Part shown: piece by piece, positions 11,080 through 62,040 of the stretch
How the letters are laid out: each line of letters opens with the position of its first letter
Numbering within the stretch: position 1 is the first letter of the stretch
Notes under the pieces: model-generated
What the model saw: only the letters and a program-made list of their open reading frames with translations
Databases searched by the model: none
Told to the model about the DNA's origin: nothing
Assembly (NCBI RefSeq): GCF_030718205.1
Contig: NZ_JAUZQF010000029.1
Span: 1 to 64,000 of the forward strand
DNA from: Nonomuraea turcica
GTDB taxonomy: Bacteria; Actinomycetota; Actinomycetes; Streptosporangiales; Streptosporangiaceae
Reading direction: 5' to 3'
Length of the DNA stretch: 64,000 nucleotides
Program-made: the position numbers and the translations under genes

Positions 11080-11093
11080 GGGACCAAAGGCAT
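11080..11093. promoter_or_regulatory. DosR-like 14-bp box
   Basis: GGGACCAAAGGCAT keeps the GGGACC..GG core of the repeated box. It stands about 85 bp upstream of the small coiled-coil gene (minus strand). The partner position 22 bp away (11102-11115) is poorly conserved. Confidence 0.5.
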
Positions 11094-11169
11094 CGGCTGC
11101 CATCCCTCCGGGGCGGACATTCGTTACGTGGTGACCTCATCGCGGTGCGAGGCGCTTACGCGAGGGTTC

Positions 11170-11205
11170 GGGCCAAAGGTCCCTTTCGGAAAGGGCCTTT
11201 GGCTC
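11170..11205. promoter_or_regulatory. Tandem DosR-like boxes upstream of P-type ATPase
   Basis: GGGCCAAAGGTCCC (11170-11183) and AGGGCCTTTGGCTC (11192-11205) are two near-palindromic 14-mers with centres exactly 22 bp apart, about two helical turns. They end 36 bp before the ATPase start at 11242. The pair is among the best in the window. Confidence 0.75.
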
Positions 11206-11241
11206 GCGCGTCCTCGCTGCCAGGGATGATCTGGTGGGGAC

Positions 11242-13695
11242 ATGGATGCCATCACGCATGCGTTCGCCGGGCTTGCCGATGAGGAGGCCGCTCGGCTGCT
11301 GGCCGAGCACGGGCCTAACGCGCTGGCGGAGCCGAAGCAACCTTCGCTGCTGGTGCGGGCGGTGCGTCAGCTCGCCGACCCGTTGTCGCTCCTGCTGTTG
11401 ATCGCCGGTCTGGTCACGCTGGTGGTGCTGGGGGAGGTGCCCGAAGGCGCGGCCATCCTCGCCATCCTGGTCGTCAACGTGGTCATTGGGGTGAGTCAGG
11501 AGGTCAAGGCGGAGCAGGCGGTTCGGGCGCTGCGGATGCTGACCGCGCCGATGGCCAAGGTACGCCGAGGTGGCGTCGTGCGCCGGATTCCGGCGGCCGA
11601 GGTGGTCGTCGGCGACGTGGTGGAGGTGGCGGCGGGCGATCGGGTGCCCGCCGATGCGCGGGTGGTCGAGGCGGCCTCGCTGGCGGCGAACGAGTCGATG
11701 CTGACGGGGGAGTCGCGCTCGGCGGGCAAACGCGCTGGAGGGCTGACGGAGGGGCCGCTGGGCGACCGAGACGGGGAGCTGTTCTCCGGCAGCATGATCG
11801 TGCGAGGCTCGGGTGCCGCGGTGGTCACCGCCACAGGCGCCACCACCGAGGTGGGCCGCATCGCCTCGGCCTTGCACGGTCACGTCAAGGGGCCCTTGGA
11901 GGTCGAACTGGCCCAGGTGTCCAAGCGCATCGGCCTGCTGGCCGTGGCGGCCGGCGTGGTCATGGTGGTGCTCGGCTTCACCCGGGGCGGGATCGAGCCG
12001 TTCGACCTGGTATTGGCCGGGGTGGCGCTGGCGATCGCGGCGGTGCCCGAGAGCATGGCGGCGGCCGTCACCACCGCGCTGGCGCTCGGATCGCAGCGCA
12101 TGGCGCGGCTTGGGGTGATCGTGCGGCGGTTGTCGGCGATCCAGGCGCTGGGTGCCACTACCGTGATCGCCTCGGACAAGACCGGCACGCTGACCACCGG
12201 CCGTCTGGCGGTGGCCGACCACCTGGAGGTCCCGGGCATGGACCTGTGGCGGGCCGCGGTGCGCTGCAACGACGCCCGTGACGGGCTTGGGGACGCGGTG
12301 GACGTGGCCCTCCTGGTCGAGGCGGAGCGCCACGGAGTGCGGCCGACGGGGCCTCGGATGGTCACCAGGCCTTTTGACGCCGACATCCGGTCGATGGCCG
12401 TCGTCACAGTCGGCCCGGTGCTGACCGTGAAGGGCGCCCCGGAGGTGATACTCGCCCGATGCGCCGCGACCGAGACCACCGAGCGCTTGGCCGCTGCCGT
12501 GCCGGAACTGGCCGGGCGCGGCCTGCGGGTGCTGGCCCTGGCCGAGGGTGACACCGACGATCTGGACGCGACAGGGCTGCGGCCGGTCGGCCTGGTCGGG
12601 CTGAGTGACGAGATCCGTCCATCGGCCCGGCAGGCGGTGGCGGACTCCCGGGCGGGCGGTATCCGGGTCATCATGGTGACCGGCGACCACGCGGACACTG
12701 CCCGGGCGGTGGCTGAGGAGGTCGGCATCGAGCCGGAGCCGGTGGTGACCGGGACAGAGCTGGGCGGGGAGGACCGCCCGGCCCGCCTGCGGGAAGCGGG
12801 CGTGCTGGCCCGCGTCGACCCGGCAACCAAGCTGGATCTGGTACGGGCGCTGCGCGACGGCGGTGACGTCGTGGCGATGACCGGCGACGGCGTCAACGAT
12901 GCGCCCGCCCTGCGGCATGCGGACGTGGGCGTGGCCATGGCGGGGGAGGAGGGCACCGACGTGGCCCGCGAGGCTGCGGCCGTGGTGGTCACCAACGGTG
13001 AGCTGGGCACGATCGTGACCGGCGTGCGCGAGGGCCGCCGCCTGCACCACAACGTCGCCTCGATGATCGGCTACCTGCTGGCCGGGAACCTGGCCGAGAT
13101 CTTCCTCGTGCTGGTCGGCCTGTTCGCCTGGCCGGACCTGGTCATCCCGCTGCTGCCGGTGCAACTGCTGTGGATCAACCTGGTGCTCGACGGCATCCCT
13201 GCCATCGCCCTGGGCGTCGACCGCGCACCCGGCGATCCCCTCGCCACCAGGCCCGGCCGGGACGGGTTGCTGTCGCGATCGGTACTGGTGAGGATCGGGA
13301 TCCGTTCGCTCATCGTCGGCCTGCTCGTCGTTGCCGCCGTCGAGGTCGCCCGACGGCTCGGTTGGGACGAGGACCAGGTCAGGACCCAGGCCGTGCTCAC
13401 GCTCGTGTTCGCCCGGCTCACCCTCGCCTACGTGGCCCGGGCCCGCCGGTGGACGTTCGAGCGCGGCTGGTGGCACGGCTGGGCGGTACTGGTCGCCGTG
13501 AGCGGGACGGCCGCACTGCAGGCGCTGGTCACGCTGGTGCCGCCGCTGGGCACGCTGCTCGCCCTTGCCCCGATCCCGCCGCTGGGCTGGGCCATGGCAC
13601 TGGGCGCCGCCATACTCACCCCGCCGCTGTGCGACCTGGCCCGCCGAGTTCGTACGGCCGCCAAGCCAGCGCCGACCGGGGACGGTCGTCCCTGA
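11242..13695 (+). CDS. P-type cation-transporting ATPase (P2-like, 817 aa)
   Basis: An ATP-driven membrane cation pump. The actuator motif LTGES, the phosphorylation site DKTGTLT (Asp312), the nucleotide-binding KGAPE, and the hinge [12 protein letters not shown] are all present. The M4 motif is AVPESM, close to the PEGLP of Ca2+/Na+ P2 pumps, and M6 is LLWINLVLDGIPAIALG; no CPx metal motif or heavy-metal N-domain exists, so it resembles mycobacterial CtpF. The N-terminal cation-ATPase domain (LADEEAARLLAEHGPN) is complete. The ATG follows GGTGGGGAC. Two DosR-like boxes lie directly upstream, matching ctpF's known membership of the DosR regulon. Substrate ion not determined. Confidence 0.92.
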   Translation: MDAITHAFAGLADEEAARLLAEHGPNALAEPKQPSLLVRAVRQLADPLSLLLLIAGLVTLVVLGEVPEGAAILAILVVNVVIGVSQEVKAEQAVRALRMLTAPMAKVRRGGVVRRIPAAEVVVGDVVEVAAGDRVPADARVVEAASLAANESMLTGESRSAGKRAGGLTEGPLGDRDGELFSGSMIVRGSGAAVVTATGATTEVGRIASALHGHVKGPLEVELAQVSKRIGLLAVAAGVVMVVLGFTRGGIEPFDLVLAGVALAIAAVPESMAAAVTTALALGSQRMARLGVIVRRLSAIQALGATTVIASDKTGTLTTGRLAVADHLEVPGMDLWRAAVRCNDARDGLGDAVDVALLVEAERHGVRPTGPRMVTRPFDADIRSMAVVTVGPVLTVKGAPEVILARCAATETTERLAAAVPELAGRGLRVLALAEGDTDDLDATGLRPVGLVGLSDEIRPSARQAVADSRAGGIRVIMVTGDHADTARAVAEEVGIEPEPVVTGTELGGEDRPARLREAGVLARVDPATKLDLVRALRDGGDVVAMTGDGVNDAPALRHADVGVAMAGEEGTDVAREAAAVVVTNGELGTIVTGVREGRRLHHNVASMIGYLLAGNLAEIFLVLVGLFAWPDLVIPLLPVQLLWINLVLDGIPAIALGVDRAPGDPLATRPGRDGLLSRSVLVRIGIRSLIVGLLVVAAVEVARRLGWDEDQVRTQAVLTLVFARLTLAYVARARRWTFERGWWHGWAVLVAVSGTAALQALVTLVPPLGTLLALAPIPPLGWAMALGAAILTPPLCDLARRVRTAAKPAPTGDGRP

Positions 13696-13782
13696 TGAAG
13701 GAGGACTTCGGCCTCTAGAGGCACGGCGTGTGCCAGGCGTGTTCTGACGATGGGGATCGGGGACCCATGCAAGGAGACTGCG

Positions 13783-14115
13783 ATGAACAGGCCGATCGTG
13801 GTCGGAGTCGATGGATCGCCATCGTCGTACGAGGCGCTGGCCTGGGCGGCCGACGATGCCGCCCGGCGCGGGCTGGACCTGCGGATCGTGCACGTACGCG
13901 CGCCGTGGGCGGACGAGCACCCGCTCACGGCGGCCAGTGACCACCGGACGCTGACCGAGCTGCTGGCCGCCGCGGCGGCACAAGCCGGTCACCGGCCGTT
14001 CGCGGAGAAGGTCGCGACGGCTTTAGCGATCGGTGTGGTGACAGAGCGGCTGAGGCACGAGTCGCAGTCCGCCGACACCCGGCGGCTCAGGGGCTGTCCG
14101 GCCGCAGCCTCATAG
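13783..14115 (+). pseudogene. Universal stress protein, 3'-truncated
   Basis: AAGGAGACTGCG precedes the ATG at 13783, and the product starts as a normal USP (IVVGVDGSPSSYEALAWAADDA, RRGLDLRIVHV). After about 90 residues, past ERLRHES, the expected glycine-rich ATP-binding segment (VVGSRG...G) and second domain are missing; the frame runs through QSADTRRLRG to a stop that overlaps the convergent 14110-14550 gene by 6 bp. Family members here have 280 residues. Probably a truncated relic, although a short product could still be made. A GAGGACTTCGGCCTC dyad at 13701-13715 may be a decayed regulatory box. Confidence 0.65.
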
Positions 14116-14550
14116 ACGGTGGATGCGGCGGCCCGTGACCTGGTGCGGGACGATGCGGATATACAGAGGGCGGTCGCCGCCCGCCCACGGGGTGACATCG
14201 ACATCGGGGACCTCGTCCGGCGGCACGTGGTGCGCCGGGCCCTGGATGAGGACGCTCCAGCCCTCCTGCCTAGCCTCGTCGATCCGATCCACCTGGAAAC
14301 CGATCTTGATCTCCACACCTTCCAGGCCGGTGCGCAGGTCCTGATCCATAGGGCCGCCATAAGAGGTGCGGAAGACGATGGCACTCTCGTGGATCTTGTA
14401 GTTGACGGGCAGCACCGTCGGCCCGTACGAGCCGTTGAACGCCACCCGGCCGATGCCGCCCGGCGCCACCAGTCGCAGGCACTCCTCGCGATCGAGGACC
14501 TCCAGTGCCGGCTCTGCCGCGGCGGGACGCGAGTCGCCAGGGGTTGTCAT
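14110..14550 (-). CDS. Pyridoxamine 5'-phosphate oxidase-family protein (146 aa)
   Basis: A split-barrel flavin-binding family protein. LEVLDREECLRLVAPGGIGRVAFN opens the fold, VLPVNYKIHESAIVFRTSYGG is the typical FMN-contact region, and IKIGFQVDRIDEARQEGWSVLIQGPAH the central strand pair. Such proteins bind FMN or F420 and are frequent DosR-regulon members. The ATG at 14550 follows AGGAGGAGAG. It diverges from the USP at 14714, and the tandem boxes at 14621-14656 lie between, so both promoters may share them. The physiological substrate is unknown. Confidence 0.85.
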   Translation of the reverse strand: MTTPGDSRPAAAEPALEVLDREECLRLVAPGGIGRVAFNGSYGPTVLPVNYKIHESAIVFRTSYGGPMDQDLRTGLEGVEIKIGFQVDRIDEARQEGWSVLIQGPAHHVPPDEVPDVDVTPWAGGDRPLYIRIVPHQVTGRRIHRL

Positions 14551-14620: not shown

Positions 14621-14656
14621 GGGTCCTTCGTCCCTTGAGCGACCGACCTCCGGCCC
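14621..14656. promoter_or_regulatory. Tandem DosR-like boxes between divergent genes
   Basis: GGGTCCTTCGTCCC (14621-14634) and CCGACCTCCGGCCC (14643-14656) have centres 22 bp apart. They lie 71 bp from the minus-strand start at 14550 and 58 bp from the USP start at 14714. Confidence 0.7.
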
Positions 14657-14713: not shown

Positions 14714-15556
14714 ATGATCATCGTCGGAGTGGACGGCTCTGTGAACTCACGGGCCGCGGTGGAATGGGCGGCCAACGACGCCTGCCGTATGCGGGTGCCG
14801 CTGCGGGTGGTGTATGCGATGGACGGTAGCTGGTACCAGATCGGCAAATACCCTGACGTCGGGCTGCCCGACGTGCTGCTCCGCGAAGGGCGGAGAATCC
14901 TGCGCGAAGCCGAGGCACTCGTCCACGAGCGCCAGCCCACCGTGGACGTCACCACGCAACAGGTCGAGGGCACGCCTACCGTGGTCCTGCGCGAGCAGGC
15001 CAAAGACGCCACCGAGATCGTGGTCGGCAGCCGCGGGCTCGGCGGCTTCGCCGGCGCGCTGCTGGGCTCCGTCAGCACTCATGTAGCCGGGCACACCCAC
15101 TGCCCCGTCGTGGTGGTCCGCGGCGAGCACCGGCCGCCCCAGGGCGAGGTCGTCATCGGCGTGGACGACTCGCCCGAGTGCGAGCCCGCGCTCGCCTACG
15201 CCTTCGAGCAGGCGCAGCTGCAGGGAGCCGCACTGCGGGTGCTGCACGCCTGGCAGCTGCCGGTACACGCCTACGCCCCGGCAATCGCCTATGACATGGA
15301 CGAGGTCCGTACGGCACAGCACCAGGTCGTCCGGAACCGGCTGGAAGCCCTCGCCAAGGACTACCCGCAAGTGAAGATCATCGAGGACGTGCACTCGGCG
15401 CATCCCGTGGAGGCGCTCACCGACGCGTCCGGACGGGCGGATCTGCTGGTGGTGGGCTCGCACGGGCGGGGCGCTATGGGGTCGGTGCTGCTCGGCTCGG
15501 TCAGCCGCGGCGTTCTGCACCATGCCCGCTGCCCGGTGGCGGTGGTCCGCGCCTAG
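14714..15556 (+). CDS. Universal stress protein, two-domain (280 aa)
   Basis: Two tandem USP domains. Domain 1 (residues 1-140) begins MIIVGVDGS and ends with GSRGLGGFAGALLGSVSTHV; domain 2 (about 147-280) begins VVIGVDDSPE and ends with GSHGRGAMGSVLLGSVSRGV. Both keep the G-2x-G-9x-G(S) signature of ATP-binding USPs. The ATG is chosen because AAGGAGGGACACATC precedes it. It is about 80% identical by eye to the protein at 61170-62012, and a CBS-BON remnant follows it just as an intact CBS-BON gene follows that paralogue, so the two loci are copies of one module. Confidence 0.93.
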   Translation: MIIVGVDGSVNSRAAVEWAANDACRMRVPLRVVYAMDGSWYQIGKYPDVGLPDVLLREGRRILREAEALVHERQPTVDVTTQQVEGTPTVVLREQAKDATEIVVGSRGLGGFAGALLGSVSTHVAGHTHCPVVVVRGEHRPPQGEVVIGVDDSPECEPALAYAFEQAQLQGAALRVLHAWQLPVHAYAPAIAYDMDEVRTAQHQVVRNRLEALAKDYPQVKIIEDVHSAHPVEALTDASGRADLLVVGSHGRGAMGSVLLGSVSRGVLHHARCPVAVVRA

Positions 15557-16820: not shown

Positions 16821-17099
16821 TCAGACTGGAGGAATCGGCGGCGGGTCCTGCTCATCCTGGGGGTCGCGGTGGATCTGGATGGTCCATTCGGCCGCAGCGG
16901 CGGCCAGCGCGGCGGCGGCGGTGACGACGGGAGCGGCGATGAACGCCACCACGCCGACGGTCACGGGGATCTCCATCACGGTGTGGCCGTGGGTGTCCTT
17001 GACGATGATCCGGCTGACGTTGCCCTCATGGATGACGGTCTTGATCTTTTCGGCGAGTTCCGCACCACGTACCCGGACCTCTTCCTTTGTGATGGTCAT
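16821..17099 (-). CDS. DUF4342 domain protein (92 aa)
   Basis: VRGAELAEKIKTVIHEGNVSRIIVKDTHGHTVMEIPVTVG is the typical DUF4342 sequence, followed by a hydrophobic segment (VVAFIAAPVVTAAAALAAAAA, residues about 50-70) that may enter the membrane, then a WTIQIHRDP strand and a Pro-rich tail. The ATG at 17099 follows AAAGGAGACAAGA. Such proteins often sit with chaperones or stress genes; the biochemical role is unknown. Two box-like sequences 62-97 bp upstream suggest the shared low-oxygen regulon. Confidence 0.85.
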   Translation of the reverse strand: MTITKEEVRVRGAELAEKIKTVIHEGNVSRIIVKDTHGHTVMEIPVTVGVVAFIAAPVVTAAAALAAAAAEWTIQIHRDPQDEQDPPPIPPV

Positions 17100-17160: not shown

Positions 17161-17196
17161 CGGGCGAAGGGCCTGATCATCGCCGCCAGTGGTCCC
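17161..17196. promoter_or_regulatory. Tandem DosR-like boxes upstream of DUF4342 gene
   Basis: CGGGCGAAGGGCCT (17161-17174) and CCGCCAGTGGTCCC (17183-17196) have centres 22 bp apart and match the box consensus at about 10 and 9 of 14 positions. Weaker than the best pairs, but position and spacing agree. Confidence 0.45.
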
Positions 17197-23233: not shown

Positions 23234-24129
23234 TCATGGCTCCAGTGACTGCGGGATGGAGTCCGAGGGGCCGGTCGGACGCTCTGTGTGCCCCGCGGCG
23301 TCGTAGATCTTCACCCACTTGATCGACGGGAACTGCTTGAGCGTCGGTCTGATCAGGTTGGCGATGGTGAACGTCGATCCTGCGCTGGTCACGCGGCCGG
23401 TCAGGTAGACCCTGGCGATGCCGTTCTTGATGGTCAGCTTGCTGAAGCCGGTGGCTGTGGAGCTGACGAACTGCAGTCCTTGCGCCTTCTCGGCTTGGGG
23501 GGGCCGGCGAACAGCCGCTGCAGCGTGCCGAAGGAGGTGGCCGGGGGGATCACCGGCCGCTGCACGGCGGTGGTGTATGGCCTGCGCCCGATGCCGTGGT
23601 TGGCCATGTTGAGGAAGTAGTCGCGCACGGGCACGGTCCGGTAGGGGGTGGCGATGTCGACGACGACGCGGCTCGGCTGAGTGAGCGTGTAGACCCGGAA
23701 GGGCACCCGCTTGGCGAGACCGACCCCGAAGGTCAGCGTCGCCTCGAAGTCCCCGGTGGTGACGACCTGGATGACGCCGGGCAGCGCGTAGGTCCTGCGG
23801 GCGGGCCCGTAGGTGACGTTTCCGTGGTCGTCGTGGCCGTCGGCCTGGCCGAAGCGCACCTGGAGCAGGGCGCTACCGACGGCGCTGACGGTGTGGCCGG
23901 AGCCGTCGGCGATCAGCTTGGTCACGTAGCGGACGTCGCGCTGGGCCGGCGCCCGGCCGCGGAACTCGAAGACCAGCCGGTCCAGGCCGGAGTGGTGCGC
24001 GGCCCTGATGCCCACCAGGGTGGGGATGGCGGCCTGCTGGGTAGCCTGCGCCGGTACGGCCGGCAGTCCCATGGCCGAGGCTGCCGCCGCGGTGGCGATG
24101 AAGGGGCGGATCGGGAGCATGATGATCAT
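23234..24129 (-). pseudogene. Secreted AMIN-like/GerMN domain protein, frameshifted at a G7 tract
   Basis: Starts MIIMLPIRPFIATAAAASAM, a signal peptide ending near VPAQA. An AMIN-like beta domain follows (LVGIRAAHHSGLDRLVFEFRG ... VVVDIATPYR), then TLQRLFAGP, the start of a GerMN domain. At the run of seven Gs at 23497-23503 the frame is lost and reads into a Lys/Arg tail (stop 23434). In the next frame the GerMN domain is complete: GLQFVSSTATGFSKLTIKNG, ARVYLTGRVTSAGSTFTIA, IKWVKIYDAAGHTE, stop at 23234. One-base slippage at the homopolymer explains it. A cell-wall or spore-related exported protein; exact role unknown. Confidence 0.8.
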
Positions 24130-24190
24130 CTCTTTTCCCGTGAGTGCTCCTGATTCCAGCGTGAACACTGCCCGTGTCCCGGTAACACCG

Positions 24191-24297: not shown

Positions 24298-24311
24298 GGG
24301 ACTTTCGGCCC
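24298..24311. promoter_or_regulatory. DosR-like box GGGACTTTCGGCCC
   Basis: A strong single match located between the DUF305 gene stop (24321) and the start of the AMIN/GerMN gene, about 170 bp upstream of the latter. No good partner at 22 bp. Confidence 0.55.
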
Positions 24312-24980: not shown

Positions 24981-25228
24981 CTCGGCCCCCTTGCTTCCAT
25001 GACCGCTGATAGCAGGTCCCTCATGACCCAGCCTGAAGCGGCCCGCTCGGCGAGGGCAGGGTCTTCCGACACCTGGAGCCGGGACCAACAGCAGCCATGG
25101 GCAGGACCAATGACCCTCTCGGCAGGATGAGCGGGCACCGCCCATTCCCGATCACGTGTTCGTTCGCTGACCAGCAGGTTGTAGGTCTCGGGAGACAGGA
25201 TCGGGCTCCAGCGCCGCAGCCACAGCAC
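24977..25228 (-). CDS. Doubtful short ORF (83 aa) upstream of DUF305 gene
   Basis: The frame starts MLWLRRWSPILSPETYNLLV and ends 4 bp inside the DUF305 gene (ATGA overlap), which hints at coupling. No family is recognised and the ribosome site is poor. It may be a 3' remnant of a larger gene whose 5' part is gone. Confidence 0.25.
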   Translation of the reverse strand: MLWLRRWSPILSPETYNLLVSERTRDREWAVPAHPAERVIGPAHGCCWSRLQVSEDPALAERAASGWVMRDLLSAVMEARGPR

Positions 25229-25277: not shown

Positions 25278-25313
25278 GGGACCTTAGACCCTATTGCTCG
25301 GTACCTTCTGCCA
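25278..25313. promoter_or_regulatory. Tandem DosR-like boxes before copper operon
   Basis: GGGACCTTAGACCC (25278-25291) and GGTACCTTCTGCCA (25300-25313) are spaced 22 bp centre to centre, 79 bp before the small membrane gene at 25392. A third half-like site (TATCCGAACGTCCC, 25238-25251) lies on the DUF305 side. Confidence 0.65.
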
Positions 25314-25409: not shown

Positions 25410-25631
25410 GTGCTCGCCGCCGTCGCGGCCGTGGCCGCGGTCGTAGCCGTGTGGGCTGGCGCGCCTGTTTACACGGTCCTGCTCGCGGCAGTTTTCCTGG
25501 TGTGCCTGGTGATCATGCTGTGGATGATGCGGTCCGTGGGCGCTGCGCACCGATCGCAACGACCGCACAGAAACGACCGCACAGATGAGCCCGATCAGGT
25601 GCGGGGCACGAAGGGAGGCGATGTCTCGTGA
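25410..25631 (+). CDS. Small one-helix membrane protein (DUF2933-like), stop at original codon 4
   Basis: GGAAGGAAGTC precedes an ATG at 25392, but its fourth codon is TAA (25401-25403). The same frame then continues [17 protein letters not shown] and [21 protein letters not shown], two hydrophobic stretches like the small DUF2933-type proteins of copper operons. Translation could restart at the GTG at 25410, giving 73 residues with a basic tail. The stop overlaps the next start as GTGA (25628-25631), so it is coupled to the ATPase. Whether it is a recent nonsense mutation or a sequence error cannot be told here. Confidence 0.6.
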
Positions 25632-29630: not shown

Positions 29631-29790
29631 AGCTGGCTCACCTGCGGAGTGAGCGCCACCGCCAAGGTGAGGCCAAGAAGCGTGAGCAGCACCAGGCCGG
29701 CCACGACCACGCCAGGCTCACCCCGGAGACAGGCGAGAACGCCTTCGCGCCGCCCTCAGCCCGCTGCACAGAACCGAACCATTCGTCCTG

Positions 29791-29889
29791 TTAGCCGGCG
29801 CCCGCAACCCACGCAAGGGAGGCAACGAGCGCGGCGATCGAGGCGACCAGCACAGTCAGCGGCAGCCGGAGCCCACGGAGTCTGGTCAC
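29791..29889 (-). CDS. Tiny membrane peptide (32 aa), coupled to SHOCT gene
   Basis: GTG 29889 overlaps the TGA of the SHOCT gene (GTGA), a common coupling arrangement. The product starts with a basic segment (TRLRGLRLP) followed by one hydrophobic helix (LTVLVASIAALVASLAWVAGA). The overlap, the basic-then-hydrophobic pattern and clean codon bias support translation. Function unknown. Confidence 0.5.
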   Translation of the reverse strand: MTRLRGLRLPLTVLVASIAALVASLAWVAGAG

Positions 29890-30221: not shown

Positions 30222-30258
30222 GGGTCCTTCGACCCTGATTGGCTGGGGCGTTCGGGCC
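30222..30258. promoter_or_regulatory. DosR-like box with weak partner
   Basis: GGGTCCTTCGACCC (30222-30235) is a strong match. GGGGCGTTCGGGCC (30245-30258) is a weaker partner with its centre 23 bp away. Upstream of the SHOCT gene. Confidence 0.6.
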
Positions 30259-30550
30259 TCCGGGTCGCACGTCCCGATCTTGGTCACGCATGATTGTCAA
30301 CGAGATGTAGGGCCCCACCCAGGCCTTCCTCATGGCCACCGGCGGCCATCCCTGTCACACGCTCACCTGCTTCCCTCACCTTCGTGGGGTACACCTAATG
30401 GCCCGACAAGGCGCCCGAGAAGGCACTCAGGCAGGCCAGGCTGGTGTCCGCCCGCCAGGGCCCCAGGGTCTCCTACCGGGCTGGCCGACCAGACGGCGTG
30501 TGGCGCTGAATGGGCGCCCTGGACGCCAGCGCCGCCTTGACGCGGTGGCG
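30259..30550. other. Gap with no supported gene
   Basis: Frames here are Pro/Arg/Gly-rich shadows without a ribosome site or recognisable family. It borders decayed gene pieces and may itself be eroded coding DNA. Confidence 0.4.
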
Positions 30551-30942: not shown

Positions 30943-31956
30943 TCATCGCGTCGCGGACGTGTCTTCTCGGGCAGGGGCGAAAGTCCCATGTCGTCGAGCC
31001 GTTCGTCCGGTGTGCTGGGCGAGGAGTTCGTTCACGGGCCGGCGCGGGGCGCGAGGCGCGATCGGGCCGTAGCCGAGGCGCATGATCATCTGTGGATGAC
31101 CGCGTCGATGATGCGGATCGCTGTGGCGCCGCATGTCGCGCAGGTCGAGCGGCTGGTTGAGGAACGACGCCGAGACCCCGTGCCTGGCCGCCACCAGCAG
31201 CACCCGCTCCAGCGCCTGCCCGGCACGCAGCCAGTCCATCGGCTCGTCCCCGGCGGTCGTGAGCACCGCGAGCTGAGGGCGCGGCTCGAAACGTCCGCTG
31301 CCGGCGCGGCGCCCGAAGTCCCGGATCGGATCCACGACACCATCGGCCAGCGGTCCGTGCATGTGGGAGGGCACGCCGTGCCCGCTCGTCCAGGCCGCCA
31401 GCTCGGCCACGTATTCGCTGTCGCGGGCCAGTTCGTCCTGAGCCAGGGCGGCGTAGTCCAGCATGTCGTCGGCCGAGCGCCGGTCCAGCAGGATGAGCCT
31501 GGCACGCTCCAGCGAGGCCGCGGTGCGCAATGCGCTCAGCACGTGCGCCGGGATCAGCCGCTCGTCGTACGGCATCCGGTTGGTACGCCGGACCGGGATG
31601 AGGCCGTACATCTCCCGCGCCTCTGCCGTCGGAAGTTCACGTGTCTCGAGGTCGACGGTGGCCAGCAGGTCCGGCGCCTTCTCGGAGTCGGGCAGCAACC
31701 GCACGTCCGGCCTGCGCCCGGCGGCACGGGCCGCGATGCGCAGGTTGAACAGCGCGGCCCCGCTGCTGACGTGCAGGGATCGCCCGCGGGGGTCGCTCAC
31801 CGGCAGCCAGCGGTCCCAGTCGGCTAGCAACTCGATCACATCGTCGCCGCGAACCTCGAACCGCCACGGCTGGGTGTTGTGCACCGACGGCGCTTCTCCG
31901 GCTGCCACGAGCAGCCGTCTGACTGCGAGGGCGATGGTGTGGTGTGCAGTGGTCAT
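30943..31956 (-). CDS. Acg-like FMN nitroreductase-family protein (337 aa)
   Basis: A double-nitroreductase fold of the Acg/Rv3131 type typical of the mycobacterial DosR regulon. APSVHNTQPWRFEVRGDDVIEL is the N-terminal signature, RRTNRMPYDERLIP the linker, GQALERVLLVAARHGVSASFLNQPLDL and PQMIMRLGYGP the C-terminal half. Acg binds FMN but lacks ordinary nitroreductase activity, so sequestration or a specialised redox role is possible. ATG 31956 follows GGGAGGTGCGTC. A CTGCCGAAGGTCCC box lies about 60 bp upstream. It ends 25 bp before the CBS fragment. Confidence 0.9.
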   Translation of the reverse strand: MTTAHHTIALAVRRLLVAAGEAPSVHNTQPWRFEVRGDDVIELLADWDRWLPVSDPRGRSLHVSSGAALFNLRIAARAAGRRPDVRLLPDSEKAPDLLATVDLETRELPTAEAREMYGLIPVRRTNRMPYDERLIPAHVLSALRTAASLERARLILLDRRSADDMLDYAALAQDELARDSEYVAELAAWTSGHGVPSHMHGPLADGVVDPIRDFGRRAGSGRFEPRPQLAVLTTAGDEPMDWLRAGQALERVLLVAARHGVSASFLNQPLDLRDMRRHSDPHHRRGHPQMIMRLGYGPIAPRAPRRPVNELLAQHTGRTARRHGTFAPAREDTSATR

Positions 31957-32016
31957 GACGCACCTCCCAATGACGACACTGGCCTGTGCGGACCCGTCCC
32001 ATCAGGGGCGGAGGTC

Positions 32017-32030
32017 CTGCCGAAGGTCCC
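32017..32030. promoter_or_regulatory. DosR-like box before Acg-like gene
   Basis: CTGCCGAAGGTCCC keeps the right half (GAAGGTCCC) of the box, 61 bp upstream of the nitroreductase start. No clear partner at 22 bp. Confidence 0.5.
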
Positions 32031-39629: not shown

Positions 39630-39692
39630 CTCCCGCACCCCGCTTGAAATACCGTCTTCCCCTCAGCCTCGCTCGCCACAGCCGCGAGCCCA

Positions 39693-39728
39693 GGGCCAAA
39701 GGTCCCGGAGACCGGCCCCCAAGACCTC
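39693..39728. promoter_or_regulatory. DosR-like boxes upstream of second P-type ATPase
   Basis: GGGCCAAAGGTCCC (39693-39706) is identical to the box at 11170-11183 before the other P-type ATPase. GCCCCCAAGACCTC (39715-39728) is a degenerate partner at 22 bp. Confidence 0.65.
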
Positions 39729-39934
39729 TTAGCCCCGGACCGCGGGACTTACGCCTCTACGACCCGACAGGGCTCTACCGTTGTCCGTGTCCCCGGGGGC
39801 GGGCGGAGGCCACTGAGCGGCGATGATCTTGTGCAGCGGCAGGTTCTCCGCGTCCGCTTCGGTCTTGTCGCCCAGGAAGCAGATCACCGGAATGGCCCTC
39901 GTCGGCGACGTTCGCGAGGGTCGGGTTCGGCGGG

Positions 39935-39970
39935 TGGGCCGTCGGCTTCGCATTTGGGGACCTTCGCCCC
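39935..39970. promoter_or_regulatory. Tandem DosR-like boxes before 38-aa ORF/GerW operon
   Basis: TGGGCCGTCGGCTT (39935-39948) and GGGACCTTCGCCCC (39957-39970), centres 22 bp apart, end 48 bp before the ATG at 40019. Confidence 0.65.
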
Positions 39971-41603: not shown

Positions 41604-41844
41604 GGACACTCACGGTGCGGCGGCGGGCCTGCGGCCACCGCTCTCATGGCCGGCCGCCGGGTGGTGCGCGGGATCGCGATGCTCAACCAAGGTCCCACAT
41701 CATCGAGGGGGAGCGCCCTGGAGTGAAAGACGAGGCTTTCGTCCCAGGGCGGGCGGGTCGTTCGCCCCTATCCGGCGCCGGGAGCCGGCCGGTAGCAAGG
41801 GGATGGGTCGCCGTACGGGTGACCCGAGAGGGAAGAGGTGTGTC

Positions 41845-42651: not shown

Positions 42652-42688
42652 CGGGCCTTTGGTGCTCCTCGTCTGGGACCAAAGCCTC
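42652..42688. promoter_or_regulatory. DosR-like boxes within the sqr promoter
   Basis: CGGGCCTTTGGTGC (42652-42665) and GGGACCAAAGCCTC (42675-42688), centres 23 bp apart, lie between the two CstR-type palindromes, suggesting combined low-oxygen and persulfide control. Confidence 0.5.
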
Positions 42689-49340: not shown

Positions 49341-50570
49341 CTAGTTAGGGAGCTGCGACCGTTCACCCAGCACCTTGCGGTAGAGCGCGTCGCGCAGGGC
49401 GAGCTCCCGCTTGTCGGTGATGCCGAACCCGAGACGGTTGGGTGCATAGCAGTATCCGATGCCGGTGTCGGGATCGGCGAGGCCGAACGAGCCGCCGTTG
49501 CCGGGGGTGCCGAAAGCGTCGTTCGCCGCGCTGCCGAAAGGCCAGTCGCTGGTCGGTTTCAGGTAGCCCAGCGAGTACACCGCCGGTGCCCGAAGGACGA
49601 GGTCGACCAGGCCGCCGCTGGGTGGCTGGGCCGGCTGCACCAGAGCGTCGAGGGTTTGCGGGGCCAGGCCGAGCTTGCCGCTCACGGCGGCGCCGTAGGC
49701 CGCCGCCACGGCGCGTGCCTCGCCGATGCCGTTTCCCGCAGGCAACTCGATGCGCAGCACATCAAGGCGGTTGTAGTTCACGTCGGTCAGCAGTTCCTGC
49801 GGGTTGGCGAACGCTCGCAGGGTGAGGCTACCCGGCGTCATCATGCCGCGAAGCAAGCCGCGCGGAACGTCACCGAGGTGCAGCAGCGATTCATACTTGC
49901 TGCGGCCGTGGATCGTCGCCCGGCGTTCCAGATCGAATCCGGCCGGCAGACCGATGGAGAAGTCGATGCCCAGCGGCGCGGCGATCTCCTCGGCGAAGAA
50001 CCGCCCCAGCGATCGCCTGGCCGGGTCCACCCGGCGCAGCAACTCGCCTTCGTACCACCCCAGCGAGATGCCGTGATAGCCCTGCCGGGTGCCCGCAGGC
50101 CATAGCGGCCGTTGCAGGGCGATGGCCGCGGCCACCAGGTCGAGGTTGCCGAGGTCGGCGATGGTGAGCGGGATATCGATCACTGGCAGGCCGGCCTGGT
50201 GGGACAGCAGTTGCCGGACGGTGATGTCACCCTTTCCCCGCCAGGCGAACTCAGGCCAGTACGCCGCGACCCGTTCGTCGTAGTCCAGCAGGCCCCGCGA
50301 GTGCGCCAGAGCGAGCGCCAGCGAGGAGACGCCCTTGGTGGTGGAGAACATCGTCACGACCGTGTCCTCGCGCCACGGCTTGCGGGTGATGCCGTCGCGG
50401 TAGCCGCCCCACAGATCGACGACCTTCCGGCCGTCGCGGTAGACGGCGCACGCCGCCCCGACCTCGCCGCGCTCGGCGAAGTTGTGCCGGAACGCATCGG
50501 CGACCGGCCCGTACCCCTCATCCACCTCGCCGCATATGAGTGCGGAGGGGACATCCACTTTGAGTATCAT
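49341..50570 (-). CDS. Serine hydrolase, beta-lactamase (class C/EstB) family (409 aa)
   Basis: The SxxK nucleophile is Ser76-Thr-Thr-Lys79 (TMFSTTKGVSS), the Tyr motif is in GYHGISLGWYEGELL, and GTPGNGGSFGLADPDTG is the C-terminal HxG-equivalent region. No signal peptide, so it is probably a cytoplasmic esterase or peptidase of the EstB type rather than an antibiotic-resistance enzyme. ATG 50570 follows GGAGCATC weakly. Two DosR-like boxes lie 50-85 bp upstream. It is unrelated in context to the serine-hydrolase relic at 32.1 kb. Confidence 0.9.
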   Translation of the reverse strand: MILKVDVPSALICGEVDEGYGPVADAFRHNFAERGEVGAACAVYRDGRKVVDLWGGYRDGITRKPWREDTVVTMFSTTKGVSSLALALAHSRGLLDYDERVAAYWPEFAWRGKGDITVRQLLSHQAGLPVIDIPLTIADLGNLDLVAAAIALQRPLWPAGTRQGYHGISLGWYEGELLRRVDPARRSLGRFFAEEIAAPLGIDFSIGLPAGFDLERRATIHGRSKYESLLHLGDVPRGLLRGMMTPGSLTLRAFANPQELLTDVNYNRLDVLRIELPAGNGIGEARAVAAAYGAAVSGKLGLAPQTLDALVQPAQPPSGGLVDLVLRAPAVYSLGYLKPTSDWPFGSAANDAFGTPGNGGSFGLADPDTGIGYCYAPNRLGFGITDKRELALRDALYRKVLGERSQLPN

Positions 50571-50620: not shown

Positions 50621-50655
50621 GGGCCGAAAGGCCCCCACCCCGGGCTCAAAGCCTC
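50621..50655. promoter_or_regulatory. Tandem DosR-like boxes before serine hydrolase
   Basis: GGGCCGAAAGGCCC (50621-50634), a near-perfect palindrome, and GGGCTCAAAGCCTC (50642-50655), centres about 21 bp apart, lie upstream of the start at 50570. Confidence 0.7.
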
Positions 50656-50755: not shown

Positions 50756-50791
50756 GGGACCATGGGCCCGACGGGAGCGGACCTTCGCCTC
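50756..50791. promoter_or_regulatory. Tandem DosR-like boxes before ABC operon
   Basis: GGGACCATGGGCCC (50756-50769) and CGGACCTTCGCCTC (50778-50791), centres exactly 22 bp apart. A third similar 14-mer, GGGACCATGGGAAC, is at 50823-50836. All lie upstream of the ATPase start at 50873. Confidence 0.7.
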
Positions 50792-52415: not shown

Positions 52416-52441
52416 GGGCCCAAGGTCGTGCCTTTCGGCCC
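52416..52441. promoter_or_regulatory. Paired DosR-like boxes before second ABC operon
   Basis: GGGCCCAAGGTCGT (52416-52429) and GTGCCTTTCGGCCC (52428-52441) overlap, with centres 12 bp apart rather than 22. 54 bp upstream of the ATG at 52495. Confidence 0.5.
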
Positions 52442-52494: not shown

Positions 52495-53397
52495 ATGTCA
52501 GCGGTGATCGTGGCAGGGCTGTGCAAGCACTACGGGGCGGTCAAGGCGGTCGACGAGGTGAGTTTCACCGTGGCGCAGGGAGAGGTGTTCGCGCTGCTCG
52601 GCCCCAATGGCGCGGGCAAGACCACCACGGTGGAGATCCTGGAAGGGCATCGCAGCCGGGACGCCGGTCAGGTGTCGGTGCTCGGCTTCGATCCGGCCAC
52701 CGGCGGCCGGGCCTATCGTGAGCGCATCGGCGTCGTGCTGCAAGAGGCCGGGTTCGAGGAGGAGTTCTCTGTCGCGGAGCTTGTCCGGCTGTACGCCGGC
52801 TTCTACCCGCGGCCCCGCGACCCGGACGAGGTCATCGAGCAGACCGGCCTCAAGGACAAGCGCGACGCCCGCGTACGGACGCTCTCCGGAGGGCAGCGGC
52901 GCCGCCTGGACCTGGCGCTCGGCCTGGTCGGCGCGCCGGAGCTGCTCTTCCTGGACGAGCCCACGACCGGCTTCGACCCTTCGGCCCGGCACCACGCTTG
53001 GGAGCTGATCGACGGGCTGCGCTCGTCCGGCACCACGATCCTGCTCACCACGCACTACATGGACGAGGCCCAGCACCTGGCGGACCGGGTGGCGGTGCTG
53101 CGCGAAGGCCGCTTGGTGGCCATCGGCGCGCCGGACACCCTCATCGCGGCCGAGGGCGCCAGCGTGCTGTCCTTCCGGCTCCCGGAGGGGACGGTCCCCG
53201 CGGATCTGCCCACCCTGACGGGCCGCGCCGAGGCGCACGGCCCGGTCGTGTCGGTCCAGACCGCCCAACCCGCCCGTGACATGCACGTCCTGACCGGCTG
53301 GGCGCTGGAGCGCGGCATCGAGCTGACCTCACTGATGCTGGCCCGGCCATCGCTGGAAGACGTCTATCTCGACCTGGTGAACGAGGCGACATCATGA
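52495..53397 (+). CDS. ABC transporter ATP-binding protein (300 aa)
   Basis: Walker A GPNGAGKTTT, Q-loop VLQEAG, signature LSGGQRRRLDLALGL, Walker B LLFLDEPTTGFDP, H-loop TTHYMDEA, then a C-terminal extension of about 85 residues typical of drug-export ATPases. GGAAGGAGCCGAC precedes the ATG. Stop overlaps the next start (ATGA). Paired with the double permease that follows. Confidence 0.92.
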   Translation: MSAVIVAGLCKHYGAVKAVDEVSFTVAQGEVFALLGPNGAGKTTTVEILEGHRSRDAGQVSVLGFDPATGGRAYRERIGVVLQEAGFEEEFSVAELVRLYAGFYPRPRDPDEVIEQTGLKDKRDARVRTLSGGQRRRLDLALGLVGAPELLFLDEPTTGFDPSARHHAWELIDGLRSSGTTILLTTHYMDEAQHLADRVAVLREGRLVAIGAPDTLIAAEGASVLSFRLPEGTVPADLPTLTGRAEAHGPVVSVQTAQPARDMHVLTGWALERGIELTSLMLARPSLEDVYLDLVNEATS

Positions 53398-58006: not shown

Positions 58007-58042
58007 GTGACCTTAGTCACCATGCGTTCGGGCCGTTCGCCT
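58007..58042. promoter_or_regulatory. Tandem DosR-like boxes before small Cys protein
   Basis: GTGACCTTAGTCAC (58007-58020, 5-bp perfect arms) and CGGGCCGTTCGCCT (58029-58042), centres 22 bp apart, 66 bp before the ATG at 58108. Confidence 0.6.
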
Positions 58043-58107
58043 CCGGCACGCGCCGACGGCAGGAGCGACGGTGAGATCACCGGAAAGCACGTAGTGAGGT
58101 GATCGAA

Positions 58108-58297: not shown

Positions 58298-58333
58298 AGG
58301 ACCAAAGGCACCCCTATTCGGGACTTTGTCCCC
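58298..58333. promoter_or_regulatory. Tandem DosR-like boxes before CBS gene
   Basis: AGGACCAAAGGCAC (58298-58311) and GGGACTTTGTCCCC (58320-58333), centres exactly 22 bp apart. The next intact gene is the CBS protein at 58448; a USP fragment lies between. Confidence 0.7.
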
Positions 58334-58369: not shown

Positions 58370-58451
58370 CGGCTCGGTGGGTCACGGCGTGCTCCACCAC
58401 GTGGCCTGCCCGGTCGCGGTGGTACGGCCTCGCATCCAGGAGGAGACATGA
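58370..58451 (+). pseudogene. Universal stress protein C-terminal fragment
   Basis: GSVGHGVLHHVACPVAVVRPR is the last 20 or so residues of a USP, matching the end of the gene at 40766-41603 (VLHHLVCPVAVVRPR). It stops at 58449-58451, overlapping the CBS start (ATGA), so the CBS gene was once downstream-coupled to a full USP that has been deleted. Confidence 0.75.
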
Positions 58452-58918
58452 ACATCGAGTCGCTGACCGCCGGTCAGGTGATGAGCCGCGTTCTGGTGGC
58501 CGTCAAGCCGGATGAGTCGCCGCTGATGGCGTGGGAGCTGATGCGTCGCGCCGGCGTGCATCACCTGCCGGTCGTCGACGGGACGAATGTGCTGGGCATC
58601 CTGACCCGCGAGCAGCTCGCGGCGTCCTGGCAGGGTGGCCCCGATGAGCAGTCCAGCCGCCAGGTCCGCGCCTTGCTGGGGCGTGGCTGCCGGCCGCGGG
58701 TGCGGCCGGACACGCCCCTGGCCCGGGTCGCGGCCGTCATGCTCGACGCCGGGTGCGACGCCGTGCCGGTGGTGTCCGGCGACGGCCTGGTCGGGATGGT
58801 CACGGCTCACGATGTGCTGGTGGCCGTCGCCGGACGAGCCAAGCCCGCCGAAGGGCCCGCTGAGGTGGTCACTGGGATGTTCCACCTCGAACCTGTCCTG
58901 CCGCACGAGACCCGATAG
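58448..58918 (+). CDS. CBS-domain pair protein (156 aa)
   Basis: Two CBS motifs: TAGQVMSRVLVAVKPDESPLMAWELMRRAGVHHLPVVDG (residues about 6-48) and VRPDTPLARVAAVMLDAGCDAVPVVSGDGLVGMVTAHDVL (about 85-125). Such stand-alone pairs bind adenine nucleotides and sense energy charge, and one (Rv2626c) is a strong DosR-regulon member. AGGAGGAGAC precedes the ATG at 58448. The flavodoxin-like gene follows after 10 bp. Confidence 0.92.
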   Translation: MNIESLTAGQVMSRVLVAVKPDESPLMAWELMRRAGVHHLPVVDGTNVLGILTREQLAASWQGGPDEQSSRQVRALLGRGCRPRVRPDTPLARVAAVMLDAGCDAVPVVSGDGLVGMVTAHDVLVAVAGRAKPAEGPAEVVTGMFHLEPVLPHETR

Positions 58919-59487: not shown

Positions 59488-59524
59488 AGGCCGAACGTCC
59501 CGATGAATCAGGGACCTCCGGCCC
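59488..59524. promoter_or_regulatory. Orphan tandem DosR-like boxes
   Basis: AGGCCGAACGTCCC (59488-59501) and GGGACCTCCGGCCC (59511-59524), centres 23 bp apart. No gene starts within the next 300 bp on the plus strand; the following 59525-59755 holds nothing recognisable. They may be left over from a deleted gene. Confidence 0.6.
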
Positions 59525-59755: not shown

Positions 59756-59792
59756 AGGCCAAAGGTCCCATCGCACGCGGGACCGTCGCCTC
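59756..59792. promoter_or_regulatory. Tandem DosR-like boxes before GAPDH
   Basis: AGGCCAAAGGTCCC (59756-59769) and GGGACCGTCGCCTC (59779-59792), centres 23 bp apart, 36 bp before the gap start. Confidence 0.65.
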
Positions 59793-59827: not shown

Positions 59828-60811
59828 ATGAGAATCGGAATCAACGGGTTCGGCCGGATCGGCCGGGCCGTCCTGCGTCGCGCGCTCCGCACCGACCTGG
59901 ACATCGTCGCCGTCAACGACGTCGCCGACGCGGCCGCGCTGGCCCACCTGCTCAGGCACGACTCCACCTACGGCCCGCTCGACCTGCCCGTCACCGCCTC
60001 CCCCGGGGCGCTGGAGGTCAACGGCACGACCATCGCGGTCAGCGCCGTCGCCGACCCGGCCGAGATCGACTGGCGCGCCCACGACGTCGAGCTGGTCATC
60101 GACGCCACCGGCCGTTTCCGGACCAGGGATGCCTTAGCGAGCCACCTGAAGGCGGGCGCGCGCAGGGTCCTGCTCTCCGCCCCCGGCAAGGGCCTGGATG
60201 CCACCATCGTGCCCGGCGTTAACGACGCGGCCTACGACCCGGCTATCCACGAGATCATCTCGCTGGCCTCGTGCACCACCAACTGCGTCGCCCCCATGGT
60301 CAAGGTGCTGCACGAGCGGTTCGGCTTCGTCCGCGGCTTCATGACGACGATCCACGCCTACACCGGCGACCAGATGTTGCTGGACGCCCCGCACAAGGAC
60401 CCGCGCCGGGCCCGCTCCGCCGCCGTCAACGTCGTGCCCACCACCACTGGCGCCGCCCGCATGGTCGGCCAGGTGCTGCCTGAGTTGAACGGCCGGTTGG
60501 ACGGCATCGCGATCCGGGTGCCGGTGGAGGACGGCTCGATCACCGACCTGAGCGCTCAGCTCAGCCGCGCCGTCACTGCGCAGGAGGTCAACGACGCCTT
60601 TGCCGCGGCCGCAGGCGACGAGTTGCACGGCATCCTGCGCTACAGCACCGACCCGCTGGTCTCCCGCGACATCGTTGGCGATGCCGCCTCGTGCGTGTTC
60701 GACTCCGCCCTCACCCAGGCGAGCGGGGATCTGGTGAAGGTCTTCGGCTGGTACGACAACGAATGGGGCTACGCCAACCGGCTGGTCGAGATGGCCCAGC
60801 GGATGGTGTGA
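59828..60811 (+). CDS. gap: Glyceraldehyde-3-phosphate dehydrogenase (327 aa)
   Basis: GINGFGRIGR is the NAD loop, SCTTNC holds catalytic Cys149, and HAYTGDQ follows with the catalytic His. RAAAVN-equivalent RSAAVNVVPTTTGAA and WYDNEWGYANRL complete the family. The residue after the beta-2 strand (VAVNDVAD) is Asp, typical of NAD-dependent enzymes. Placing it behind tandem DosR-like boxes suggests an alternative, low-oxygen GAPDH beside a housekeeping one elsewhere. Downstream lies a decayed kinase fragment. Confidence 0.95.
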   Translation: MRIGINGFGRIGRAVLRRALRTDLDIVAVNDVADAAALAHLLRHDSTYGPLDLPVTASPGALEVNGTTIAVSAVADPAEIDWRAHDVELVIDATGRFRTRDALASHLKAGARRVLLSAPGKGLDATIVPGVNDAAYDPAIHEIISLASCTTNCVAPMVKVLHERFGFVRGFMTTIHAYTGDQMLLDAPHKDPRRARSAAVNVVPTTTGAARMVGQVLPELNGRLDGIAIRVPVEDGSITDLSAQLSRAVTAQEVNDAFAAAAGDELHGILRYSTDPLVSRDIVGDAASCVFDSALTQASGDLVKVFGWYDNEWGYANRLVEMAQRMV

Positions 60812-61043: not shown

Positions 61044-61079
61044 ACCGCTGGCAGCTCGTGTGAAGGGGCATGGCATACC

Positions 61080-61115
61080 AGGTCCTTCGGCCCTCGGGCG
61101 ACGGACCTCCGGCCC
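61080..61115. promoter_or_regulatory. Tandem DosR-like boxes before USP
   Basis: AGGTCCTTCGGCCC (61080-61093) and CGGACCTCCGGCCC (61102-61115), centres exactly 22 bp apart and 55 bp before the USP start, the same arrangement as at 14621-14656 before its paralogue. Confidence 0.75.
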
Positions 61116-61169
61116 TGCACATGATGAACACGAGCGCGCTGCGATGGAGCTGAGAAGGAGGAGGACATC

Positions 61170-62012
61170 ATGATCATCGTAGGAGTGGACGGCTCGGTGA
61201 CCTCGAGAGCCGCCGTCGAGTGGGCAGCCAACGACGCCTTCCGCATGCGGGTGCCGCTGCGGATCGTGCACGCCGTGGACCGCTCGCCGTACCAGATCGG
61301 CAAATACCCCAACGTCGCCCTGCCTGATGTGCTGCTGAGCGAGGGCCGCAGGATCCTGCGCGAGGCCGAGGCGCTCGCCCGCGAGCGCCAGCCTGCGATC
61401 GAGGTCGAGACGCACAACATCGAAGGGGCGCCTGCCGTGGTCCTGCGCGAGCAGGCCAAGGGCGCCACCGAGCTGGTGGTCGGCAGCCGCGGGCTGGGCG
61501 GGTTCGCCGGCGCGCTGCTCGGCTCGGTCAGCATGCACGTGGCCGGTCACGTGCACTGCCCGGTCGTGGTGGTGCGGGGCGAGCTGCGGCCGGTGCACGG
61601 GGAGGTCGTGGCCGGGGTGGACGACTCGCCCGAGTGCGAGCCCGCGCTGGCTTACGCCTTTGAGCAGGCCAAGCTGCGGGGCAGCGCGTTGCGGGTGGTG
61701 CACGCCTGGCAGCTGCCGGTGCACGCGTTCGCGTCGGAGGCCGCCGTCGACATGGACGAGGTTCGTACGACGCAGCACCAGCTCGTCAGGGACCGGGTGG
61801 CGGCACTGAGCAAGGACTACCCCGAGGTCAGGGTCATCGAGGAGGCGCTGTCCGCGCATCCGGTGGACGCGCTCACAGACGCCTCGGAGCGGGCGAACCT
61901 GCTGGTGGTGGGCTCGCATGGGCGCGGCGCCCTGGGCTCGATGCTGCTGGGCTCGGTCAGCCGGGGCGTGCTGCATCACGCCCGCTGCCCCGTGGCGGTG
62001 GTTCGCGCATAG
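61170..62012 (+). CDS. Universal stress protein, two-domain (280 aa)
   Basis: Paralogue of the protein at 14714-15556 with the same length and layout. Domain 1 starts MIIVGVDGSVTS and contains VVGSRGLGGFAGALLGSVSM; domain 2 starts VVAGVDDSPECEPALAYAFE and ends VVGSHGRGALGSMLLGSVSR. GAGAAGGAGGAGGACATC precedes the ATG. Tandem boxes upstream and a CBS-BON gene downstream complete the module. ATP binding is expected from the glycine motifs. Confidence 0.95.
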   Translation: MIIVGVDGSVTSRAAVEWAANDAFRMRVPLRIVHAVDRSPYQIGKYPNVALPDVLLSEGRRILREAEALARERQPAIEVETHNIEGAPAVVLREQAKGATELVVGSRGLGGFAGALLGSVSMHVAGHVHCPVVVVRGELRPVHGEVVAGVDDSPECEPALAYAFEQAKLRGSALRVVHAWQLPVHAFASEAAVDMDEVRTTQHQLVRDRVAALSKDYPEVRVIEEALSAHPVDALTDASERANLLVVGSHGRGALGSMLLGSVSRGVLHHARCPVAVVRA

Positions 62013-62026
62013 GACCTGCCTGGTCA

Positions 62027-62040
62027 GGGACTTTGGTCAC
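62027..62040. promoter_or_regulatory. DosR-like box before CBS-BON gene
   Basis: GGGACTTTGGTCAC lies 14 bp after the USP stop and 72 bp before the CBS-BON start. No clear partner. Confidence 0.55.

Follow-up and report, generated by a model that had tools for sequence, protein, structure and literature searches.

Tandem DevR/DosR-type boxes spaced by 22 bp in the filamentous actinomycete Nonomuraea turcica

The first 64,000 nucleotides of contig NZ_JAUZQF010000029.1 of Nonomuraea turcica (the window, C37:1-64000, within a host genome of 12.66 Mb in 113 contigs) carry, from 11 kb onward, a palindromic GGGnCnWWnGnCCC box repeated before genes, often as tandem pairs with a dominant spacing of 22 bp. 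Judging from the sequence, the boxes are real and almost certainly docking sites for the host's own version of the DevR-type low-oxygen dormancy switch, and we regard their role as operators of a DevR/DosR/OsdR-type response regulator as highly probable. The host system is a DevR/DosR/OsdR regulon of a large filamentous actinomycete, a kind that is already known; added here are a quantified 22-bp rule, its apparent phasing with a degenerate -10 element, probable leaderless targets, dosR among them, and a regulator present in two copies, in two islands.

The original prediction described a 14-bp DosR-like box at about 21 intergenic sites, about fifteen of them paired. Allowing up to three mismatches, the 14-mer matched the window 47 times, whereas 100 dinucleotide shuffles set the expectation at 22.35 and reached no more than 32. 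Because the 14-mer alone was only about twofold over shuffles, a symmetrised 20-bp matrix was trained on window intergenic sites (window matrix), with contig C42 held out and the first 360 kb of contig C1, whose intergenic DNA is about 2.5 times that of the first 100 kb of C42, serving as control; a reverse matrix was trained on C42 alone and then applied to the window. Above 11 bits, the window matrix placed 36 intergenic sites in C37, 24 in that 100-kb stretch of C42 and 1 in C1. The C42 matrix found 24 intergenic window sites above 10 bits, compared with a mean of 1.20 and a maximum of 5 in 200 runs on first-order Markov DNA, and just one of the 24 lies before 11 kb (position 354). Recurrence of the box is thereby borne out, with held-out and reverse matrices far above chance and clear enrichment over shuffled and simulated DNA. 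The window holds 33 box groups above 9 bits, 9 within called open reading frames (ORFs) and 24 outside or at the edge of called genes, 23 of the latter from 11 kb on. Thirteen of these 24 have a partner above 5 bits at 21-23 bp, and two further pairs (30222/30245 and 30974/30996) fall within called ORFs, making the predicted numbers of sites and pairs fair estimates. An Rfam scan of the window returned no match.

The boxes are concentrated before regulon genes. A first gene was counted when a box lay no more than about 200 bp from it, the C42 matrix being used for C37 and the window matrix for C42 and C1. C37 gave 0 of 7 at 1-11 kb, in keeping with the predicted absence of boxes before the accessory genes at 1-10 kb, followed by 15 of 36 in the rest of the window (11-64 kb), 11 of 29 from there to 112 kb (26 of 65 when 11-112 kb are pooled) and 0 of 11 at 112-129 kb. 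C42 gave 20 of 37 at 1-60 kb and 0 of 30 at 60-100 kb, and C1 gave 2 of 212. Across the genome, GGGWCNWWNGNCCC occurs in 51 distinct places, 25 of them on C37 and C42, which make up about 2% of the genome; the remaining 26 are scattered.

Partners above 6 bits at 21, 22 and 23 bp numbered 2, 15 and 8 for 40 anchors in C37, with 22 bp dominant, and 3, 11 and 1 for 26 anchors in C42, a pair with both members as anchors entering these counts twice. The only other C37 offset with at least three partners was 12 bp, with three, and 23 anchors in C1 had no partner above 6 bits at 17-27 bp. Using matrices not trained on the tested contig, a 5-bit partner at 21-23 bp was found for 21 of 39 C37 anchors and 16 of 26 C42 anchors, while the 61 other three-base bins averaged 0.72 and 0.44, with maxima of 4 and 3. 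Chance or a by-product of base composition is an exceedingly improbable source of this pairing: G+C-rich DNA does give some chance boxes (13 per 100 kb above 9 bits in C1), but random intergenic anchors had on average only 0.8 partners in C37 and 0.5 in C42 (maxima 5 and 4 in 2000 draws), and the peak reappears in independent loci. Among 80 named actinobacterial loci, 77 of 155 pairs lie at 21-23 bp, the other 48 offsets sharing 78, and the C1 control for this test had 0 pairs at 21-23 bp for 47 anchors. A matrix built from 25 OsdR site sequences of a Streptomyces paper (PMC5069765) likewise ranked offsets of 22 and 23 bp highest in C37 and 22 bp in C42, with nothing at 21-23 bp in C1. The spacing distribution thus has the anticipated peak at 21-23 bp. 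Five of the six pairs named in the original prediction stand, with the weaker member at about 5 bits or more; the exception is 25278/25300, whose partner scores 1.6 bits (4.8 with the C42 matrix). Triple boxes in steps of 21-23 bp occur at 62004/62027/62050 (the first weak), C37:65556/65578/65600 and C42:44477/44499/44520. Offsets of 7-9 bp were rejected as a spacing signal, being self-overlap of the palindrome that is present in the control C1 as well.

The DevR/DosR homologue expected from the box lies 0.9 kb to the right of the window, at C37:64878-65519. This 213-aa response regulator is a DevR orthologue whose best solved relative is M. tuberculosis DevR (3c3w, E 3.4e-80, residues 1-210 aligned to 1-210), and it is 87-94% identical to those of Nonomuraea, Microtetraspora, Streptosporangium and kin (the best 80 out of 555 or more relatives), which makes the host very probably a member of Streptosporangiaceae. 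The second box-rich island holds another copy, at C42:7716-8354, with 94% identity to the first. Both copies keep D54, which we take to be the phospho-acceptor Asp, together with K179, K182 and N183, presumably the DevR recognition residues, giving the regulator the expected features of a NarL-family DevR orthologue. Boxes occur upstream of both copies, so the regulator has its own box. In Streptosporangiaceae, the box centre is 42-44 bp before dosR in 12 of 19 loci and 72 bp before it in 1, and 6 of the 19 have no box above 7 bits within 200 bp of dosR. A 594-aa DevS-type kinase with HisKA_3 is encoded 17 kb beyond the DevR gene (C37:82117-83901). Its residues 1-294 match the DevS GAF domain (2y8h, E 1.7e-54) and 2vzw (E 2.5e-51), which we take to be DosT, and its GAF domain keeps an HPPM His and, 22 residues later, a Tyr, presumably the heme ligand and the distal residue, consistent with a DevS/DosT-type heme GAF histidine kinase in which heme binding is predicted.

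Binding of the boxes by another LuxR/NarL-type regulator is very unlikely. In its favor, scoring 150 of 265 candidates gave at least 128 matches to the GerE domain in the genome. Among full-length regulators (150 of 243 candidates scored), however, just two come close to DevR, and the next matches are 31-44% identical. Both DevR copies sit within the two box-rich islands, their recognition residues are those of DevR, and the box consensus matches published OsdR sites (PMC5069765), all of which favors the DevR orthologue as the regulator of the boxes.

Promoters were aligned on the centre of the proximal box, 39 of 52 in this genome having it within 110 bp of the start codon. The standard -10 motif TANNNT was nearly absent, found in at most 1 of 52 at any offset, and NANNNT was therefore tried; it was picked after inspecting this genome and then tested on other loci. 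In this genome NANNNT lies at +29 to +31 in 20 of the 39 promoters (other bins: mean 3.8, maximum 8), and a T at +35 or +36 is present in 32 of 39, and in 15 of 19 scored window promoters. The relatives comprised 41 of the 80 named loci (Streptosporangiaceae, Thermomonosporaceae, Nocardiopsaceae, Jiangellaceae), with 141 of 177 promoters within 110 bp. Of these 141, 38 have NANNNT at +30 and 30 have it at +31, compared with 4.9 for an average offset; 100 have T at +35/36, and 33 have their start codon 42-44 bp away from the box centre. Twelve of these 33 are dosR. Of the 115 promoters left once dosR is excluded, 26 have NANNNT at +30 and 26 at +31, compared with 3.6 for an average offset and 12 for the next highest; 81 have T at +35/36, and 21 have the start codon at 42-44 bp, the mean per three-base bin being 4.0. 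Orthologous promoters in related species are non-independent samples, and the two sets of relatives' loci partly overlap. In this genome the start codon lies 41-43 bp from the box centre in 7 of 52.

If the T at +35/36 is position -7, transcription would start near +42, placing the proximal box at about -42 and the distal one at about -64. We infer from this a degenerate -10 whose distance to the proximal box is constant, and closely packed boxes at 21-23 bp whose proximal member would overlie the -35 region. A transcription start near +42 would coincide with a start codon at 42-44 bp, and the excess of start codons there suggests leaderless mRNAs. M. marinum provides a parallel, with YANNNT -10 motifs lacking a -35 and many leaderless mRNAs reported in PMC8022548. 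This anatomy also bears on the idea that the palindromes are a dispersed repeat (resembling repetitive extragenic palindromes, REP) or transcription terminators. The boxes are indeed palindromic and repeated, but such an origin is extremely improbable given that the outermost two matrix columns on each side hold only 0.13-0.21 bits, indicating that flanks are not shared, that pair members differ in sequence, and that the boxes stand upstream of starts, in phase with the -10.

The 22-bp spacing is clear in Streptosporangiaceae (38 of 58 pairs at 21-23 bp), Thermomonosporaceae (11 of 27), Nocardiopsaceae (11 of 21) and Jiangellaceae (7 of 9), and weak in Streptomycetaceae (1 of 7). Micrococcales gave 2 of 4, Pseudonocardiaceae 1 of 2, Geodermatophilaceae 0 of 3, and others with metagenome-assembled genomes 6 of 24; families were assigned from genus names, one Nocardia-titled record being grouped with Pseudonocardiaceae. 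Scored per anchor with the window matrix, families f4, f19 and f18 had 9 of 18, 5 of 13 and 4 of 14 at 21-23 bp. A DevR match at the E-values used is present in 54 of 61 genomes of the host's own family and 110 of 148 of its class.

Several observations weigh against the reading of the boxes as DevR operators. In this genome 21 of 55 box promoters lack a partner above 5 bits. The weaker box is proximal in 8 and distal in 8 of 16 pairs (28 non-divergent promoters), and without a preferred side for the weaker box a fixed strong/weak order is not seen; an arrangement with the strong box always distal was rejected on the same count. A count of 17 versus 17 for the order is balanced partly by construction, since divergent promoters are counted from both sides. 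With the OsdR matrix, Streptomycetaceae and family f18 together place just 7 of 25 pairs at 21-23 bp. In G003, the other genome from this genus, DevR found no match at E <= 1e-75, and the regulator may therefore be missing there.

In the proposed mechanism, low oxygen (or nitric oxide) would probably activate the DevS-type heme GAF kinase, which would phosphorylate the DevR orthologue. DevR dimers would then fill the strong box and, in many promoters, also a partner 22 bp away, two helical turns off on the same DNA face. The proximal box, centred near -42, would cover and replace the -35 element, with the other box near -64, and the poor -10 (NANNNT) would make transcription dependent on the activator. 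Box-bearing targets in the window would include universal stress proteins (USPs), CBS proteins, the Acg-type oxidoreductase, P2 ATPases, sulfide:quinone reductase and glyceraldehyde-3-phosphate dehydrogenase (GAPDH), and those in the second island the nitrate-reductase-like molybdoenzyme, pyruvate formate-lyase and wax ester synthase/diacylglycerol acyltransferase (WS/DGAT). The sequence shows the boxes, their spacing, the -10 phasing and the genes for regulator and kinase; from these we infer binding, the transcription start and the oxygen signal, and cooperative binding of two dimers would be expected from the spacing and from published M. tuberculosis work. We give about an even chance to a wider proposal, namely that a fixed grammar (DevR dimers at -64/-42, a degenerate -10 without a usable -35, and in many cases a start codon at the transcription start, hence a leaderless mRNA) is ancestral across Streptosporangiales and Jiangellales, and that in this host the two DevR copies, nearly identical, use that grammar to control two islands with 46 box-bearing first genes between them, including a dosR-adjacent operon that seems to carry a sigma-70-family factor.

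Along the window, a tandem pair at 11058..11093 (11058/11080; 11.9 and 9.2 bits, offset 22) is followed by the pair at 11170..11205 (18.0 and 7.8 bits, offset 22), whose proximal centre is 43 bp from the start codon of the P2-type cation ATPase 11242..13695(+) (Pfam E1-E2_ATPase, Cation_ATPase_N, Cation_ATPase_C). Its first box, GGGCCAAAGGTCCC, recurs at 39693 before the second P2-type ATPase (37095-39638(-), by Pfam), confirming the predicted identity of the two; there, within 39693..39757 (15.0 and 12.7 bits), the 39693 box has a partner of 2.5 bits and the other box lies at 39744. The pair at 13679..13715 (11.3 and 7.3 bits, offset 23), its first box overlapping the end of the ATPase gene, is 41 bp from the start of a short gene (13750-14115) that has a USP-like N terminus by eye and no NCBIfam match. 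Another pair (14621..14656; 16.6 and 5.0 bits, offset 22) separates a divergent pyridoxamine oxidase-like gene (14110-14550(-)) from a USP gene (14714-15556(+)), both by Pfam. A box with a weak partner (17161..17196; 12.1 and 3.3 bits) precedes a DUF4342 gene (16821-17099(-)), and single boxes lie at 24298..24311 (15.0 bits, without partner, 130 bp before 23434-24168(-)) and 25103..25116 (15.4 bits, partner 1.4, before the DUF305 gene 24321-24968(-)). The strong box of 25278..25313 scores 19.8 bits; for a third P-type ATPase (25628-28336), the closest strong box stands 337 bp upstream. The cluster 30222/30245/30262 (30222..30275; 17.6, 8.5 and 11.6 bits) lies within the called ORF 29886-30287(-), which may be spurious; the opposite-strand ORF 29649-30293 has no Pfam match. 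A box without partner (32005..32018, 11.2 bits) precedes the Acg (Rv3131)-family FMN (flavin mononucleotide) oxidoreductase gene at 30943..31956(-) (NCBIfam NF047509, 289 bits, cut-off 199).

Further along are a single box (39957..39970, 16.3 bits), a pair at 41732..41768 (7.8 and 15.2 bits, offset 23), and a pair at 42653..42688 (11.2 and 12.5 bits, offset 22) whose proximal centre is 42 bp from the start of the sulfide:quinone reductase gene 42724-43965(+) (NF049943); this protein is above the cut-off for the NCBIfam 'type III, selenoprotein subtype'. A single box (50621..50634, 15.8 bits) precedes a beta-lactamase/esterase-family gene (49341-50570(-), by Pfam), and a pair at 50756..50791 (17.7 and 6.6 bits, offset 22) lies where an ABC transporter gene is called to start. 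Two good boxes before the ABC gene 52504-53397(+) are spaced 12 bp (52416..52441; 13.8 and 12.7 bits), departing from the 22-bp rule. The remaining pairs lie at 58007..58043 (9.5 and 7.9 bits, offset 23), at 58298..58333 (7.0 and 9.2 bits, offset 22) before the CBS-domain gene 58448-58918(+) (Pfam CBS), at 59488..59524 (18.5 and 15.8 bits, both strong, offset 23), at 59756..59792 (14.1 and 9.1 bits, offset 23), with its proximal centre 42 bp from the start of the GAPDH gene 59828-60811(+), and at 61080..61115 (13.0 and 8.7 bits, offset 22) before the USP gene 61170-62012(+). The triple array (62004..62063; 3.0, 12.9 and 8.2 bits, steps of 23) precedes the gene 62098-62769(+), its proximal centre 41 bp from the start.

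The window encodes P2 ATPases, USPs, PPK2, the Acg/Rv3131 oxidoreductase, sulfide:quinone reductase, GAPDH and CBS proteins, together with DsrC-like, rhodanese and TauE genes and a formate dehydrogenase alpha subunit (TIGR01591, over cut-off) with a NuoEF-like partner. This content fits the DosR regulon named in the original prediction, but not every island gene has its own box: the PPK2 and formate dehydrogenase genes have none above 9 bits nearby. The C42-matrix site 23147 might serve the formate dehydrogenase genes. Beyond the window, C37 carries a USP gene (by eye) and then a sigma-70-family gene beside dosR, as well as WS/DGAT, phosphoketolase and hemerythrin genes. The USP-like gene, which is divergent from dosR, is overlapped at its end by the sigma-70-family gene (C37:66479-67390; regions 1.2, 2, 3 and 4). 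The latter lies downstream of the triple box, and the regulon may therefore pass on to a second sigma factor. The C42 island holds a large molybdopterin oxidoreductase (C42:8558-12211), whose description as nitrate-reductase-like is based on size and gene neighbourhood rather than on a family match, together with pyruvate formate-lyase, phosphate acetyltransferase, an AdhE-like protein and a second WS/DGAT. Dormancy genes of the USP, Acg, WS/DGAT and nitrate-reductase-like types are thus all represented.

With these findings the dormancy switch known from tuberculosis bacteria reaches large filamentous actinomycetes of the soil, and its regulon there is legible in the sequence alone. Box spacing and -10 phasing, both conserved, amount to a promoter rule that can be put to the test: it predicts where transcription starts and which mRNAs are leaderless, and it does so in harmless organisms, which allow safe study of activator cooperativity.

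Tandem Dev boxes are said to have been called a hallmark by Chauhan in a 2011 article in Nucleic Acids Research (NAR). Literature searches, mostly at the level of titles and abstract openings, returned no paper on a 22-bp rule outside mycobacteria. The host system resembles S. coelicolor OsdR/OsdK (SCO0204/SCO0203), whose regulon is clustered around the regulator gene (PMC5069765). The same paper gives a 16-nt OsdR consensus, AGGGCCGATCGGCCCT, with GGGACCTTCGGCCC within three listed sites; the exact 14-mer of the original prediction is found in three listed OsdR sites (SCO5979, SCO0167 and SCO0216), and OsdR binds the SCO5978-5979 region in vitro. In Table 1 of the paper a single promoter, SCO0517, is listed with two sites, at a distance of 20 bp, and a term search of the paper gave no 'tandem', 'two binding sites', 'bp apart' or 'leaderless'. 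Unlike the host loci, Streptomycetaceae loci show weak 22-bp pairing. For M. tuberculosis DevR, multiple boxes, cooperative binding and a proximal box over the -35 are described in PMC3029386. The host shares with this system an orthologous regulator with the same recognition residues, a DevS-type kinase, one, two or more closely packed boxes per promoter with the proximal one predicted over the -35 (PMC3029386), and relatives of Acg/Rv3131, USPs and WS/DGAT. It differs from M. tuberculosis in having two DevR copies, 94% identical, and two islands, which also carry pyruvate formate-lyase, AdhE-like and phosphoketolase genes.

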